A program made the position numbers and the translations under genes. Positions 24,157-31,798 of a stretch of 53,935 nucleotides of DNA are shown in pieces; position 1 is the first letter of the stretch, and the number at the start of each line of letters is the position of its first letter. The notes beneath the pieces are model-generated. The model searched no databases and was not told the origin of the DNA. It was given only the letters and a program-made list of their open reading frames with translations. The DNA is taken from positions 74,916 through 128,850 of the forward strand of contig JAHELV010000001.1 in the NCBI GenBank assembly GCA_024644015.1, in the 5' to 3' direction. The DNA is from Nitriliruptorales bacterium (GTDB taxonomy: Bacteria > Actinomycetota > Nitriliruptoria > Euzebyales > JAHELV01).

Positions 24157-26970
<2,814 letters not shown>

Positions 26971-26987
26971 CCGGGCGCCACCCTACG

Positions 26988-28232
26988 GTGACCGATCGCG
27001 CACACGCCGTCGATCTGGACCGTCACGATCCGCTGGCGGCGTTCACCGAGTGCTTCGACGTCCCCGACGGCGACCCGCCGCTGGTGTACTTCTGCGGCAA
27101 CTCGCTCGGTCTGCAGCCCCGTGCGACCGAGGCGGTTGTGCTGGCCGAACTGGAACGCTGGCGTTCGCGGCTGATCCGCGGCTGGAACGAGCGCTGGTTG
27201 GACCTCGTCGCCGAAGCCTCGACGCATGTGGCCGAGCTGATCGGCGCGCCATCGGCCGGCGTACGCGTGGCCGACTCGACCACGGTCTGCCTGTCGAACC
27301 TGGCGAACGCCGGCCTGCGCGTCATGCCAACGCGTCCCGACGTGCTCTCGGATCGTGGGAACTTCCCGACCGACCTGTACGTGCTCGACGCCGCGGCCCG
27401 GGCGGCTGGGGGCAGGCTCCGGTTGCTGGATGGCGATCCTGCCCCGCGCGATGTCGCGGCGGCGCTCGACGCGCGGGTCGGACTGGTCGCGCTGTCACAC
27501 GTCGATTTCCGCACCGGTGCCCGGCTTGATCTCCCCGCGATCACTGCCCGCACACGCGAGGCGGGCGCGCTGTCGCTGTGGGACCTCTCGCACAGCGCCG
27601 GCGTGATGCCGGTCAACGTGACGCTCAACGATGTCGACCTCGCCGTCGGGTGCACCTACAAGTACCTGCACGGCGGCCCCGGCGCACCGGCCTACGTGTA
27701 CGTGCGACCCGACCTTGCGGATCAGCTCCAGACACCCATTCCCGGATGGTTCGGGCACGCCGCTCCATTCGCCATGGAGGCCTCCTACCGGCCGGCCCCC
27801 GGCGTCGACCGCTTCCGCGCGGGCACCCCGGCGATGCTGTCGGTCGCCGCGATGATGGCCGGGCTCGAGATGGTGCGCGCCGCAGGGGTGTCGGCCGTCC
27901 GCGCCAAGAGCGTCGCCCTGACCGCGCTCGCCATCGCCCTGTCCGATGCATGGCTTGCCGACCACGGTGTGGAGGTTGTCACTCCGCGAGATCCGGCGCG
28001 TCGCGGCGGCCAGATCGCGCTGCGCCACCCGGAGGCGCGGCGGATCGTCGCGCTGCTCGCCCACGAGCAGCAGGTGATCGGCGACTTCCGGGAGCCCGAC
28101 ATCGTGCGGCTGGGCCTGGCGCCCCTCGGGCTGCGCTTCGTCGATGTGTACGACGGGTTCCGACGCTTCGCGTCGGGCCTCGAGCGCGGCGATCTCGAGC
28201 GCTATCGCGGCGAACTGGGCTACGTGACGTGA
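26988..28232 (+). CDS. kynU: Kynureninase
   Basis: PLP enzyme that cleaves kynurenine to anthranilate and alanine in tryptophan breakdown. The 414-residue protein has VYFCGNSLGLQPR, RGWNERW, SNFPTDLYV-like (here GNFPTDLYVL), LSHVDFRTG, LWDLSHSAGVMP (PLP-contacting Asp) and the Schiff-base lysine in CTYKYLHGGPGAPAYVYV, all typical. GTG 26988 is 17 bases after the secA stop. Upstream frame is secA shadow. No other kyn gene is adjacent, so it may work with genes elsewhere. Confidence 0.92.
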   Translation: MTDRAHAVDLDRHDPLAAFTECFDVPDGDPPLVYFCGNSLGLQPRATEAVVLAELERWRSRLIRGWNERWLDLVAEASTHVAELIGAPSAGVRVADSTTVCLSNLANAGLRVMPTRPDVLSDRGNFPTDLYVLDAAARAAGGRLRLLDGDPAPRDVAAALDARVGLVALSHVDFRTGARLDLPAITARTREAGALSLWDLSHSAGVMPVNVTLNDVDLAVGCTYKYLHGGPGAPAYVYVRPDLADQLQTPIPGWFGHAAPFAMEASYRPAPGVDRFRAGTPAMLSVAAMMAGLEMVRAAGVSAVRAKSVALTALAIALSDAWLADHGVEVVTPRDPARRGGQIALRHPEARRIVALLAHEQQVIGDFREPDIVRLGLAPLGLRFVDVYDGFRRFASGLERGDLERYRGELGYVT

Positions 28233-28407
28233 CCGCGGGTACCGCAGGCCGCACGGACGGTGGGCAGTGGTTGGCTGCCCGACCTGGCATGGCTCGATGG
28301 CGAAATCGAGGTTGGTGTTCGCGGCGTGTGGCAACACTGAGCAACATCAGACGTTGCGTTACCGTTTCGGGGCTCTGCCCCGCGACGCAGGGAAGAGAGA
28401 CAGCGAC

Positions 28408-28602
28408 ATGACTCGTGGCCAGGCGGGATTCTTCATCGGCTTTGCACTCGCCGTGCTCGTCTGGGCGGCCGGACTGTGGGTCGCCTTGGGGGCTGCGCTC
28501 GCTGGTCTCATCGGTTGGGTCGTCGTCTACGTGCTCGAGCGGGACGTCGATCTCGAAGAGTTGAACCGGGTGCTCACGCGACGCGACGACCGGCAGGCCT
28601 AG
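28408..28602 (+). CDS. DUF2273-like small membrane protein
   Basis: A 64-residue protein with two hydrophobic helices (GFFIGFALAVLVWAAGLWV and ALAGLIGWVVVYVL) and a charged tail (ERDVDLEELNRVL). This matches the DUF2273 small membrane proteins encoded in Asp23/AmaP operons. ATG 28408 has an AAGAGAGA purine run upstream, and the in-frame extension to 28267 lacks protein-like character. It opens the Asp23 cluster, with a 60-base gap to the first Asp23 gene. Confidence 0.75.
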   Translation: MTRGQAGFFIGFALAVLVWAAGLWVALGAALAGLIGWVVVYVLERDVDLEELNRVLTRRDDRQA

Positions 28603-28662
28603 GCGTCGCAGATCCACTCCGATCGATCGCCGGAGCCTGTGTGTCCGGCAGAGGAGCTACCA

Positions 28663-29154
28663 ATGGCAGACACCGCATCGACCAAGACCTCCGAGCCGAC
28701 AGGCGCTTCCGGTGGCGAGTCCGCCGGCCAGGCGCTGAGCCGCCGCAGCACCGGGGCAGCCGAGCTGCAGGAGAGCCGGGGCGTCACGACGATCCAGGAC
28801 TCTGTCGTCGCGAAGATCGCGGGTCTTGCAGCTCGCGAGGTCGCCGGCGTGGTCTCGCTCGGCGGTGCCACAGCCAGTGCCATCGGAGGCGTGATGGGGC
28901 GGCTCCGTGGCAGTGAGCACAGCACGGCGGGGGTCGGCGTCGAGGTCGGCGAGCGCCAGGCGGCCATCGACATCGCGCTCAAGGTCGAGTACCCGGCTCG
29001 CCTCCACGAGGTCGCGAGCTCCGTGCGCGAGAACGTCATCGATCGCATAGAGACGATGACCGGCTTGGAGGTCGTCGAGGTCAATGTAGCGGTGCTCGAC
29101 CTGTCCTTCCCCGGCGACGAGGAAGAGGACGCTGGATCGCAGCGGGTGGAGTGA
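28663..29154 (+). CDS. Asp23/Gls24-family envelope stress protein
   Basis: A 163-residue protein. After a disordered N terminus of about 45 residues comes the Asp23 fold: TTIQDSVVAKIAGLAAREVAGVVSLG, an IDIALKVEYPARLHEVASSVRENV helix-strand unit and VVEVNVAVLDLSF. In Staphylococcus, Asp23 is a membrane-associated protein anchored by AmaP, and its loss induces envelope stress genes. ATG 28663 follows a GAGGAG site. It overlaps the next gene by GTGA. Confidence 0.87.
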   Translation: MADTASTKTSEPTGASGGESAGQALSRRSTGAAELQESRGVTTIQDSVVAKIAGLAAREVAGVVSLGGATASAIGGVMGRLRGSEHSTAGVGVEVGERQAAIDIALKVEYPARLHEVASSVRENVIDRIETMTGLEVVEVNVAVLDLSFPGDEEEDAGSQRVE

Positions 29155-29492
29155 CGTTGACGACCGCGGCGGCCGAGATCGCCGCTGCGGCGGCCGAGAT
29201 CGCCGCCGCGGCGACCGGTCTGCCGACCGTTGCGCGTCTGTATCACGGCGCGGTCGGTGAGATCGCCACCTATGGGGGCGGCAGGCGGGTCGGTGGGGTG
29301 CGCATCCGCCCGGACTCGCCGCTGCAGATCGACGTCCACATCGTCGCGCGATACGGGCGACCACTGCCTGAGATCGCGACTTCGGTCCGCACCGAGATCG
29401 CCCACCGACTGCGTGACCGCGGGCCGGCGCTCGTGGACGCGGTGATCAACGTCCACATTGCCGACATGGAAGATCCGCAGGTTCCGACATGA
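29151..29492 (+). CDS. Second, shorter Asp23-like protein
   Basis: A 113-residue paralogue-like protein with weak Asp23 features: GVRIRPDSPLQIDVHIVARYG, EIATSVRTEIAHRLRD and AVINVHIADMED align with the strand-helix-strand core of Asp23. The usual N-terminal conserved segment is replaced by an alanine-rich helix coded by a tandem 21-base repeat (AAAEIAA twice). The GTG start overlaps the preceding stop by four bases and the end overlaps the next gene as ATGA. Confidence 0.7.
   Translation: MTLTTAAAEIAAAAAEIAAAATGLPTVARLYHGAVGEIATYGGGRRVGGVRIRPDSPLQIDVHIVARYGRPLPEIATSVRTEIAHRLRDRGPALVDAVINVHIADMEDPQVPT
29166..29207 (+). repeat. Tandem 21-base repeat in the Asp23-like gene
   Basis: Two 21-base units (29166-29186, 29187-29207) differ at one silent base (GCT versus GCC) and encode AAAEIAA twice. 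This is a recent in-frame duplication or slippage product near the N terminus. Confidence 0.85.
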
Positions 29493-30019
29493 CGATAGTG
29501 AACCGGCTGCTGGCGCTCGTCTTCGGTCTTGCGCTGGCGGCCGCCGCTGGGGTCGCGATCATCGAGATGGTCACCGCCCTGACCGGCAACGCCGGCATCG
29601 TGCCGCGTGAGCAATGGGCAAGCGCGCTGGCTGAGCTGCGTTGGGACGATCCGACGCTCGTCGGTGTGGCGATCGGTCTGGTGCTGATCGGCCTGGCGCT
29701 GTTGAGCGGCGAGCTGACTCCTGCTCGCCCCGGGCAGTTCGCCCTGCAGGGCGCGACGGACGCGGCCGCGTCGATCGACCGGCGAGGCCTGCAGGAACGA
29801 CTTCGCCACGTGGCCCTTCGCGACGCCGACGTCGTGGCGGCGGACGTTCGGATTCGGCGCCGGGCGAAGGTCCGTGCGTCCGTGCCGCCGGACACGGACC
29901 GGCGGGCGTGCCGCCAGCGTGTGCTGGACGCCACGACGTCGGCCATCGATGAGCTCGGTCTGATCAGGCCGCCGACGGTGCGGGCGGAGATCGTCAGGGC
30001 GCGGGAGCGGGTGCGATGA
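29489..30019 (+). CDS. DUF6286-like membrane protein of the Asp23 operon
   Basis: A 176-residue protein with two N-terminal membrane helices (LALVFGLALAAAAGVAII and LVGVAIGLVLIGLALL) and a cytoplasmic domain of about 100 residues with an LRHVALRDADVVAADVRIRRR strand-turn-strand unit. Size, topology and position match the DUF6286 proteins of actinobacterial Asp23 operons. The start and end both overlap neighbours by four bases (ATGA). Confidence 0.65.
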   Translation: MTIVNRLLALVFGLALAAAAGVAIIEMVTALTGNAGIVPREQWASALAELRWDDPTLVGVAIGLVLIGLALLSGELTPARPGQFALQGATDAAASIDRRGLQERLRHVALRDADVVAADVRIRRRAKVRASVPPDTDRRACRQRVLDATTSAIDELGLIRPPTVRAEIVRARERVR

Positions 30020-30585
30020 TCGACGGCGTCAACCGGGTGGTGCTCGCGTTGGTTGCGATCCTACTGATCGCTGCGGGCGCCATTGCGCTGGCGGCGGCAG
30101 CGGGCACGCTCGCGCTCGCCGAGCCGTCCCGGTTGTATCGGCAGGCGCAAGCCCAGGTGCAGGCAGATCCACAGATCTGGTGGCCCGTGCTGATCGGTGG
30201 CGCGGTGATCGTGTTCGTGCTCGCGCTGTGGTGGGCGTTGCGCCAGGTGGTCGTCCGCCGACCGGGCGGTGGGCTGTCGACCGTGACACTCGAGGACGGC
30301 GACCGTGGCCGCACGACGGTGGATGCCGCGCCCGTCGCCCGTGCCGCCGCTGCTGATCTGCGACGTCTGCCGGAGGTCACCGACAGCTCCGTCAGACTGG
30401 TCAGCGACAGCGGCGGGCAGCTGCTACGGACGCGGATCGACGTCCTGACCGATGCAGACCTCACGTCGGTGCGGGACGCGGCACGCGACGTCTATCAGCG
30501 CGTGGCCGAGCTGCTCGGATCCAAGGACCTGGCGACCCACACCTACATACGGCCGCTCGGGCAGTCCCAGCGGCGCGTACGGTGA
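30016..30585 (+). CDS. amaP: AmaP-like alkaline shock membrane anchor protein
   Basis: A 189-residue protein with two helices (VVLALVAILLIAAGAIALA and WWPVLIGGAVIVFVLALWW) and a C-terminal cytoplasmic domain of about 120 residues (RIDVLTDADLTSVRDAARDVYQRVAELLG). AmaP anchors Asp23 at the membrane in Staphylococcus. Similar topology, size and operon place support the call, while sequence identity to the firmicute protein is low by eye. The symbol is therefore by analogy. It overlaps the genes on both sides by four bases. Confidence 0.6.
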   Translation: MIDGVNRVVLALVAILLIAAGAIALAAAAGTLALAEPSRLYRQAQAQVQADPQIWWPVLIGGAVIVFVLALWWALRQVVVRRPGGGLSTVTLEDGDRGRTTVDAAPVARAAAADLRRLPEVTDSSVRLVSDSGGQLLRTRIDVLTDADLTSVRDAARDVYQRVAELLGSKDLATHTYIRPLGQSQRRVR

Positions 30586-30863
30586 CCGCTGCGCACCGCC
30601 GGGACGCGCGCCTCCTGCTCGGCGTCTCGCCGTCGGCATCCGCCGTGGAGGTCGACCGAGCGTTTCGTCGCTTGGCGCAGCAGTGGCATCCAGATCACGG
30701 CGGTGACATCGACCAGTTCCGGCGGCTGGTCGCTGCCCGCGACGCGTTGGGGAACACCGCCCCCGGGGCCGCACCGGTCGTGTTCGTCCGATCGGAGCCT
30801 TGGTGGCTCCGACTGCTGCACGCATTGACCCGACGTCGGACGCGCGCTCCGCGGGTTCAGTAG
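30582..30863 (+). CDS. J-domain (DnaJ-like) small protein
   Basis: A 93-residue protein consisting of a J domain (about 8-60) with the HPD motif at residues 36-38 (QQWHPDHGGD), helix II AVEVDRAFRRLA and helix III FRRLVAARDALG, then a basic tail with WWLRLLHAL, which may touch the membrane. HPD stimulates Hsp70 ATPase, so this protein may bring DnaK to the Asp23/AmaP complex. It overlaps the AmaP-like gene by four bases (GTGA) and the converging dehalogenase gene by seven. Confidence 0.85.
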   Translation: MTAAHRRDARLLLGVSPSASAVEVDRAFRRLAQQWHPDHGGDIDQFRRLVAARDALGNTAPGAAPVVFVRSEPWWLRLLHALTRRRTRAPRVQ

Positions 30864-31777
30864 CGCTGGGCGCCGGCAAAGGCGGCGATCGCGACGGCAA
30901 GCTCGCGGCCCTTGTCCTCCTGGAGGAAGTGGCCTGCGCCTGTGATGGTCGTGTGCGACTGGCCGCGGGCGCCCGGGAACGCGCGCTGCATGACCCGGTC
31001 GACACCCGTCATGATGGGATCTCCGTCGCTGAATGCCGTGAGGAACGGCACGTCGATCTCGGTCAGTCGCCGCCAGGCACGCCGGTTGTCCTCCGCGCCC
31101 GGATGGTCCGGTCGGTAGGGGACGAGCTCGGGCATCGCCCGCGGCCCCGCCTTGTACGTCTCGTCTGGGAATGGTGCATCGTAGGCCGCGCGTTCGGCGT
31201 CCGACAGCGTGCGCTGCGTGCCGGCCTGCACGAGCCGGGCGATGTTCAGCGTCGGCGCCGTGTTGACGGTCCGGCGGAAGGCGTGCCAGACCTCGGGCAG
31301 TGCGTGGTCACCGCTGGGCAGTGCGGTGTTGGCGGCCACGAAGCCGGCGAACCGCTGGGGATTCGCGGCGAGCAGACGCAGGCCGATAAGACCGCCCCAG
31401 TCCTGGCCCACCCACGTCACGTCCTCCAGCGTGAGGGCCTCGATCAGGCTCCAGGTCCACGCGACATGCCGGCCGTAGGTGTGATCGGTGATCTCGGTCG
31501 GCTTGTCGGACCGGCCGAAGCCGATCATGTCGGGCACGATCACCCGGAGGTCGGCATCGACCAGCACCGGGATCATGTGCCGGTACAGATAGGACCAGGT
31601 TGGTTCGCCATGGAGCAGCACCAGCGGGGGCGCGTCGGTCGGGCCCGCGTCGACGTAGGCCATCTGCAGGTCGGCGGGCGCACCGGCGTCGGCTGCGTTC
31701 ACCGTCGCGTAGCGTGGCTCGGCGTCGAAGTCCGCCAGATCGGCGAATCGTTCGTTGGGGGTGTGCAGCACGCGCAT
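30857..31777 (-). CDS. Haloalkane dehalogenase
   Basis: Alpha/beta hydrolase of 306 residues that hydrolyses carbon-halogen bonds to alcohols. Catalytic parts are visible: nucleophile Asp126 in VGQDWGG, halide-binding Trp127, HGEPTWSYLYR before it (Glu58, Trp61), an acidic residue in SDGDPIMTG (about 251-253) and His283 in GAGHFLQED. These define subfamily HLD-I, like mycobacterial DhmA. I chose ATG 31777 because GGGAG lies eight bases upstream. GTG 31792 would add five residues. The substrate range cannot be read from sequence. Confidence 0.88.
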   Translation of the reverse strand: MRVLHTPNERFADLADFDAEPRYATVNAADAGAPADLQMAYVDAGPTDAPPLVLLHGEPTWSYLYRHMIPVLVDADLRVIVPDMIGFGRSDKPTEITDHTYGRHVAWTWSLIEALTLEDVTWVGQDWGGLIGLRLLAANPQRFAGFVAANTALPSGDHALPEVWHAFRRTVNTAPTLNIARLVQAGTQRTLSDAERAAYDAPFPDETYKAGPRAMPELVPYRPDHPGAEDNRRAWRRLTEIDVPFLTAFSDGDPIMTGVDRVMQRAFPGARGQSHTTITGAGHFLQEDKGRELAVAIAAFAGAQRY

Positions 31778-31798
31778 GCCCTGATCTCCCACCGTTGG

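Follow-up and report, generated by a model that had tools for sequence, protein, structure and literature searches.

In Staphylococcus aureus, Asp23 polymerises into filaments, and AmaP serves as its membrane anchor; the molecular function of Asp23 was still termed unclear in 2020, and the word "chaperone" was not found in the accessible part of the text of that paper (PMC6954212). A second system of relevance is the atcJABC operon of Shewanella oneidensis. It encodes AtcJ, a protein of 94 amino acids (aa) with a functional J-domain, whose tail of 21 residues is the main site for the operon partner AtcC (7 nM for the whole protein, 80 nM for the tail peptide); AtcJ stimulates the ATPase of DnaK 3.3-fold, an effect nearly abolished by the substitution H31Q (PMC6715715, in its accessible sections). 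Here we describe a series of six genes, all on the + strand, at positions 28408-30863 of a 53,935-nucleotide stretch of a Nitriliruptorales genome (assembly GCA_024644015.1, contig JAHELV010000001.1, positions 74,916 to 128,850; hereafter the window). The series encodes two Asp23 proteins, membrane-like proteins and, as gene 6, a small J-protein. On balance we regard gene 6 as a dedicated J-protein of class C, whose basic tail would dock on the Asp23/AmaP assembly and bring DnaK there, in a manner comparable to AtcJ.

The AlphaFold model of gene 6 has helices at residues 3-13, 21-35 and 43-57, with block pLDDT of 90-95 over residues 1-50, and places the HPD tripeptide in the loop joining helices II and III. 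Foldseek searches with this model recovered J-domains as the best matches in the Protein Data Bank (PDB), including the DnaK-bound DnaJ J-domain 5nro, with a lowest E-value of 0.005 and none below 0.001; a profile search of PDB sequences likewise points to J-domains. No other Pfam family was matched at E-values up to 1, and no G/F, zinc-finger or client-binding domain was found in its 93 residues. In an alignment of 18 full-length orthologues the invariant positions are L13, A27, H36, P37, D38, G40, G41 and L56. When ten full-length rows were aligned with six shorter forms from Actinomycetia, R29, the HPD and the two glycines were invariant in all 16; R29, which lies in helix II and which we take to correspond to K26 of Escherichia coli DnaJ, is also kept in 17 of the 18 full-length rows. 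The conserved HPD and the confidently modelled J core make coupling of gene 6 to DnaK likely.

The preliminary description of this DNA, made from the window's letters, had proposed that a J-domain subunit couples the Asp23 assembly to DnaK, and had set against this the possibility of an accident of one genome. That possibility is rejected, as the J gene recurs at Asp23 loci of other genomes: it is present in 10 of the 12 Asp23-positive genomes of the window's class, at 18 of 42 named Asp23 loci (chosen by likeness to the window's Asp23, a count that is not a phylum rate) and at 4 of the 47 operon-type loci among 100 further Asp23 regions from a phylum sample (mostly higher-scoring, taken from among the matches listed). 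A search with the J-protein alone against 101 genomes gave its seven best non-self matches in G017, G020, G021, G009, G028, G018 and G015; six sit at Asp23 loci, and the seventh, in G020, lies where a contig of 5.9 kb ends, in a genome that is 74% complete. Across the 66 genomes of the class, Asp23 was found in 12, a full-length member of the J family in 11, both in 10 and neither in 53 (Fisher's exact test, 3e-9, relatedness not being corrected for). In each of the ten genomes with both (G000, G009, G015, G017, G018, G021, G028, G034, G039 and G045) they share one locus, and neither occurs in the other three genomes assigned to the window's genus. In the class search full-length members score at least 85.8 bits and the next match, a long-frame DnaJ-type protein, 72.2 bits. 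Among 197 genomes of the phylum, 85 have an Asp23 match among the matches listed, and all seven J matches of at least 85.8 bits sit at Asp23 loci. Lower matches that reach the tail of the J-protein occur within longer frames: residues 2-83 in a frame of 223 aa (67.9 bits, G063), 1-90 in one of 249 aa (59.6 bits, G033) and 1-89 in one of 200 aa (49.3 bits, G144). Up to 77 candidates per genome were scored in the class and up to 25 in the phylum, so that weak J-like genes may be missed.

The 18 named loci with a same-strand J-like gene carrying HPD close by come from Actinomadura (two), Mycobacterium, Mycolicibacterium, Mycobacteroides, Segniliparus, Speluncibacter, Rhodococcus (two), Marinactinospora, Nocardioides and metagenome-assembled genomes (MAGs) of Dermatophilaceae, Nocardioidaceae, Acidimicrobiales (two), Acidimicrobiaceae, one unplaced Actinomycetota and one labelled Acidobacteriota. 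HPDxGG is contiguous in 17 of these 18 genes and in 17 of the 18 rows of A1, the profile used in the searches; in L084 two extra residues separate the glycines. At 38 of the 42 loci, same-strand genes of the DUF6286/AmaP type lie no more than 4 kb away. The J gene takes four arrangements. Eight loci of the class (L054, L056-L061 and L205) have it upstream of Asp23. In the remaining named carriers, as in L148, L149 and L152, it stands between Asp23 genes two and three; it comes last in the window and in L072 and L084, and in L055 it is convergent. Hence the earlier statement that the operon ends in the J gene is right for the window and two other loci and does not extend to the other mapped loci, where it occupies a first or middle place or is convergent; an importance of the last position is rejected, since the position shifts between loci. 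That the gene shifts within the locus and yet remains there would be better explained by a shared function than by frozen gene order. Additional Asp23 genes lying apart from the main set were also seen, a solitary one in G018 (L065, G018:C17) and a third in G017 (L055:2779-4152).

Five pairs of near-related J genes gave dN/dS of about 0.21, 0.35, 0.25, 0.18 and 0.29, dN being below dS in all five; every pair comes from other genomes, the window's own gene having no close enough relative, and among them the pair L097/L100 is near saturation with the L100 row cut short and the rows of L149/L152 are cut at the front. Values of 0.18-0.35 indicate that the protein encoded by the J gene is maintained, and, together with the orthologues at Asp23 loci of other genomes, place the association with Asp23 beyond chance.

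From these observations the following sequence of events may be proposed. Gene 6 encodes, as its sequence shows, a J core made of helices I-III that bears a conserved HPDxGG and is followed by a short basic tail, and it does so at an Asp23 locus; over the final 35 residues the net charge lies between +5 and +15, the tail being basic in all 18 rows. The tail might then dock on the Asp23/AmaP assembly at the inner face of the membrane, and the HPD loop and helix II would activate the ATPase of the cell's DnaK at that site; binding of gene 6 to both DnaK and Asp23 is what we infer. A DnaK encoded within the operon was considered and rejected, as the single canonical dnaK of the source genome is found next to a dnaJ on a different contig. 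In the most speculative step, the client would be the Asp23 polymer itself, whose filaments DnaK could loosen or redistribute under envelope stress; auxilin-type J-proteins act in this way on clathrin. Alternatively, the Asp23 assembly could be a platform and not a client, the J-protein stationing DnaK at the membrane for other envelope proteins or for the membrane itself. The basic tail would suit such a role, and the authors of the AtcJ study, in its accessible sections, suggest as one reading of their data that the DnaK system is directed to a cellular location (PMC6715715). None of our results contradicts this alternative or separates it from Asp23 as the client, and we hold it to be improbable. 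A plain amphipathic membrane helix was likewise tried as an account of the tail and rejected, as 6 of the 18 rows pass a shuffle test.

Several observations weigh against a dedicated, DnaK-coupled J-protein of the Asp23 system, and they concern both its linkage to Asp23 and its fold. As regards linkage, Asp23 occurs without J in two genomes of the class (a whole operon in G022 and a fragmentary match in G023), and J without any Asp23 found in the incomplete G020. At 20 of the 38 named loci with DUF6286/AmaP genes there is no J, and the same holds for 43 of the 47 operon-type loci of the phylum, including families f23 and f15. Same-strand linkage fails in L055, where J is convergent, and in L095 a J-domain lies upstream on the opposite strand in a different type of protein. 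The latter (L095:4146-4646, - strand, Mycolicibacterium sp. J2), about 1.8 kb upstream of Asp23, has its J-domain C-terminal to a lysine/alanine-rich, histone-H1-like stretch. Profile A1 was built from this survey's sequences, and all 11 class and seven phylum matches are rows of it or identical to them (the J of G128 being identical by eye to the L104 row); those searches therefore add only that no further full-length member was found away from Asp23. When 81 Asp23 proteins were placed on a tree (obtained by a quick method from few columns, with L083, L095 and L099 scored as lacking J, of which L083 and L099 extend past the ends of their contigs), the presence of J needed at least 15 changes, compared with 24.4 in shuffles; six of these changes are imposed by branches with good support. 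The position of J among carriers needs at least four. In a tree of J cores the Asp23-linked J-proteins fall into two or more groups set among generic J-domains, and the test of a single clade does not reject it (p-AU 0.18), so that two recruitments may be considered alongside one followed by fast divergence.

The J gene is therefore an accessory of the Asp23 system, optional and absent from most operon-type loci, and it has been gained and lost across Asp23 loci. Such patchy presence is what one would also expect of a small J gene that came to lie beside Asp23 by chance. This explanation is disfavoured, and we think it scarcely credible, because the linkage recurs in several gene orders, J and Asp23 are jointly absent from the rest of the window's genus and most of its class, and dN lies below dS in all five pairs. 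In the same Asp23 tree, L072, from the MAG labelled Acidobacteriota, groups with an Acidimicrobiaceae contig (SH-aLRT 96) that has the same gene order with J last; either a mis-binned contig or a transfer would account for this.

As regards the fold, helix IV is not seen in the model of gene 6, which has instead a separate and less certain tail helix at residues 74-86; this helix is amphipathic (shuffle p < 0.05) in only 6 of the 18 rows, the window's own value being p = 0.52. The reduction is greater in Actinomycetia, where the six forms aligned with ten full-length rows lack helix I. These short forms match the full-length family in a profile-profile comparison over 42 columns (probability 97.5), and HPDxGG is present in 13 of 13, a count that partly reflects selection, as they were gathered with a J profile favouring that motif. 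All ten that were tested match no Pfam family above its cut-off. The model of a short form consists of a helical hairpin around HPD and a basic helix (mean pLDDT 72.8), for which Foldseek returned one match only, to Tim14-Tim16 (E-value 8.3), and no confident J fold; their kinship to J-proteins thus rests on sequence and place. Several short forms (L069, L081, L097, L100, L101 and L105) share an aromatic/basic end, such as KRYFDI or RYLDRR, which is possibly a second conserved docking tail.

These structural losses would be accounted for if the protein were a J-like structural subunit that binds Asp23/AmaP, no longer works with DnaK and uses the J fold as a scaffold, as in degenerate J-proteins of the Tim16 type: the Actinomycetia forms have no helix I, helix IV is lacking from the window's model, and the J fold goes unrecognised in the model of the short form. 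The HPD is usually missing from J-like proteins. However, HPDxGG persists here amid drift at nearly all other positions (mean column identity 30%, with the profile selection already mentioned contributing in part), and R29 is kept with it. Forms without HPD were also sought: among + strand frames of at least 45 aa in the 24 named loci without a same-strand J, judged by eye, there was no small J-like frame and no HPD/E/N variant. Moreover, the gap between the second and third Asp23 genes measures 421-972 bases in 15 loci with J and 200-408 bases in 15 loci without it (12 of the 42, with a different layout, cut off or lacking a second gene, being left out). The gene thus appears to be mostly gone, by real loss or by never having been gained, and not disguised as a J gene without its motif; the two ranges nearly touch, and L103 and a few other loci could still conceal something small. 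A bare HPDxGG pattern occurs off the operon in 5 of the 100 phylum loci (L206, L213, L219, L220 and L224), unsupported by the J profile. We therefore judge the structural subunit rather unlikely.

A wider and more tentative proposal can be framed, to which we would give somewhat less than even weight: Actinomycetota may run a DnaK-driven cycle of assembly and disassembly on a membrane-associated Asp23 polymer by means of an operon-encoded J-protein, and in mycobacteria, rhodococci, Actinomadura and relatives this J-protein may have shrunk to the DnaK-docking hairpin (helix II, HPDxGG, helix III) with a basic tail. To our knowledge, an HPD hairpin with a basic tail would be a smaller J module than any described.

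The features of the locus are listed in Table 1.

Table 1. Features of the Asp23/J-protein locus, in window coordinates
Feature	Position	Strand	Description
Gene 1	28408..28602	+	64 aa, two hydrophobic segments; DUF2273-like by position only
Gene 2	28663..29154	+	Asp23 protein 1, 163 aa; Pfam PF03780, 94.5 bits
Gene 3	29151..29492	+	Asp23 protein 2, 113 aa; PF03780, 32.0 bits (cut-off 28)
Gene 4	29489..30019	+	DUF6286 membrane protein, 176 aa; Pfam PF19803, 44.0 bits (cut-off 35); two transmembrane (TM)-like segments
Gene 5	30016..30585	+	AmaP-like membrane protein, 189 aa; NCBIfam NF033218, 43.6 bits; two TM-like segments
Gene 6	30582..30863	+	Class C-type J-protein, 93 aa; Pfam PF00226 (DnaJ), 33.6 bits (cut-off 27.8); AlphaFold model m7c5ccd1a2382
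HPD motif of gene 6 (residues 36-38)	30687..30695	+	HPD in 18/18 and 16/16 alignment rows
Predicted tail helix of gene 6 (residues 74-86)	30801..30839	+	Candidate docking segment; AlphaFold helix, block pLDDT 77 and 69

All four junctions between genes 2 and 6 are overlaps of four bases (GTGA at 29151, ATGA at 29489, ATGA at 30016 and GTGA at 30582), as the preliminary description had reported, and its recognition of two Asp23-type proteins and a J-domain protein is borne out by the Pfam scores. It had counted two membrane proteins. Genes 4 and 5 indeed look membrane-bound, and with the two hydrophobic segments of gene 1 there are three such products and not two. Genes 1 and 2 are 60 bases apart. 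Gene 1, which matches no Pfam or NCBIfam family above cut-off, is presumably DUF2273-like, a name given by position only; homologues lie directly 5' of Asp23 in L063, L072 and L084. Gene 5 has no Pfam match above cut-off, and both it and gene 4 (28.8 bits) fall below the cut-off of 55 of the AmaP model NF033218, so that gene 5 is named AmaP-like only. A promoter scan found none, and an Rfam scan of the window gave no match above gathering score; two terminator-like hairpins were seen, one 5' of gene 1 (28293-28310) and one within it. The 3' neighbour, an alpha/beta-hydrolase gene (30857-31792, - strand), is convergent with the J gene and shares seven bases with its end. On the 5' side a kynureninase-like gene (26928-28232, + strand; Aminotran_5 and KYNU_C) sits between the operon and a SecA-like gene (24157-26970) named by eye. 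A Pfam search of the source genome revealed no Asp23 gene beyond the operon and four places with a J-domain, the operon's included.

J-proteins and Asp23 operons are each already known; what we did not find described is a recurrent J-protein dedicated to Asp23, and its reduction to an HPD hairpin. In the open-access literature, covered for wider topics by titles and the starts of abstracts of the top-ranked papers, no J-protein linked to Asp23, AmaP or Gls24 was found. Upon ethanol shock of Streptomyces venezuelae one Asp23 gene goes down while homologues of DnaK and GroEL go up (PMC9769785, in its accessible part). The only named locus from Streptomycetaceae (L091, Kitasatospora) has no J, so these data bear only loosely on the present system. 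The recurrence of the J-Asp23 operon link thus upholds one part of the earlier proposal, and its DnaK coupling is likely, judged from motif and model; the J gene is optional, most Asp23 operons of the phylum sample being without it. A dedicated J-protein gives the concrete hypothesis that Asp23 polymers, or proteins gathered there, are clients of DnaK. Furthermore, nature provides a graded set of forms, from a J-domain that is nearly complete down to a hairpin still bearing HPDxGG, in which to ask what minimum is needed for recruitment of DnaK.

In comparison with the known systems, gene 6 resembles DnaJ and CbpA in its J core with HPD, as seen in the Foldseek and profile matches, but differs from them in lacking their G/F, zinc and client-binding domains, in having a tail of its own and in being separated by score in whole-genome searches. 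The likeness to AtcJ is closer: both are tiny class C proteins (93 and 94 aa) with an HPD-bearing J core and a short C-terminal extension, encoded together with their partners. Unlike AtcJ, however, gene 6 belongs to an unrelated operon with unrelated partners, and stimulation of DnaK, measured for AtcJ, is for gene 6 a prediction; nor is gene 6 a member of the NCBIfam cold-adaptation model NF050028 (21.4 bits, cut-off 150), printed as ActJ and taken by us to be AtcJ. With the S. aureus operon, which presumably has no J gene, the window shares the presence of an Asp23 protein and an AmaP-type membrane anchor in one operon, whereas its own set comprises two Asp23 proteins, DUF6286 and AmaP-like proteins, and a J-protein.

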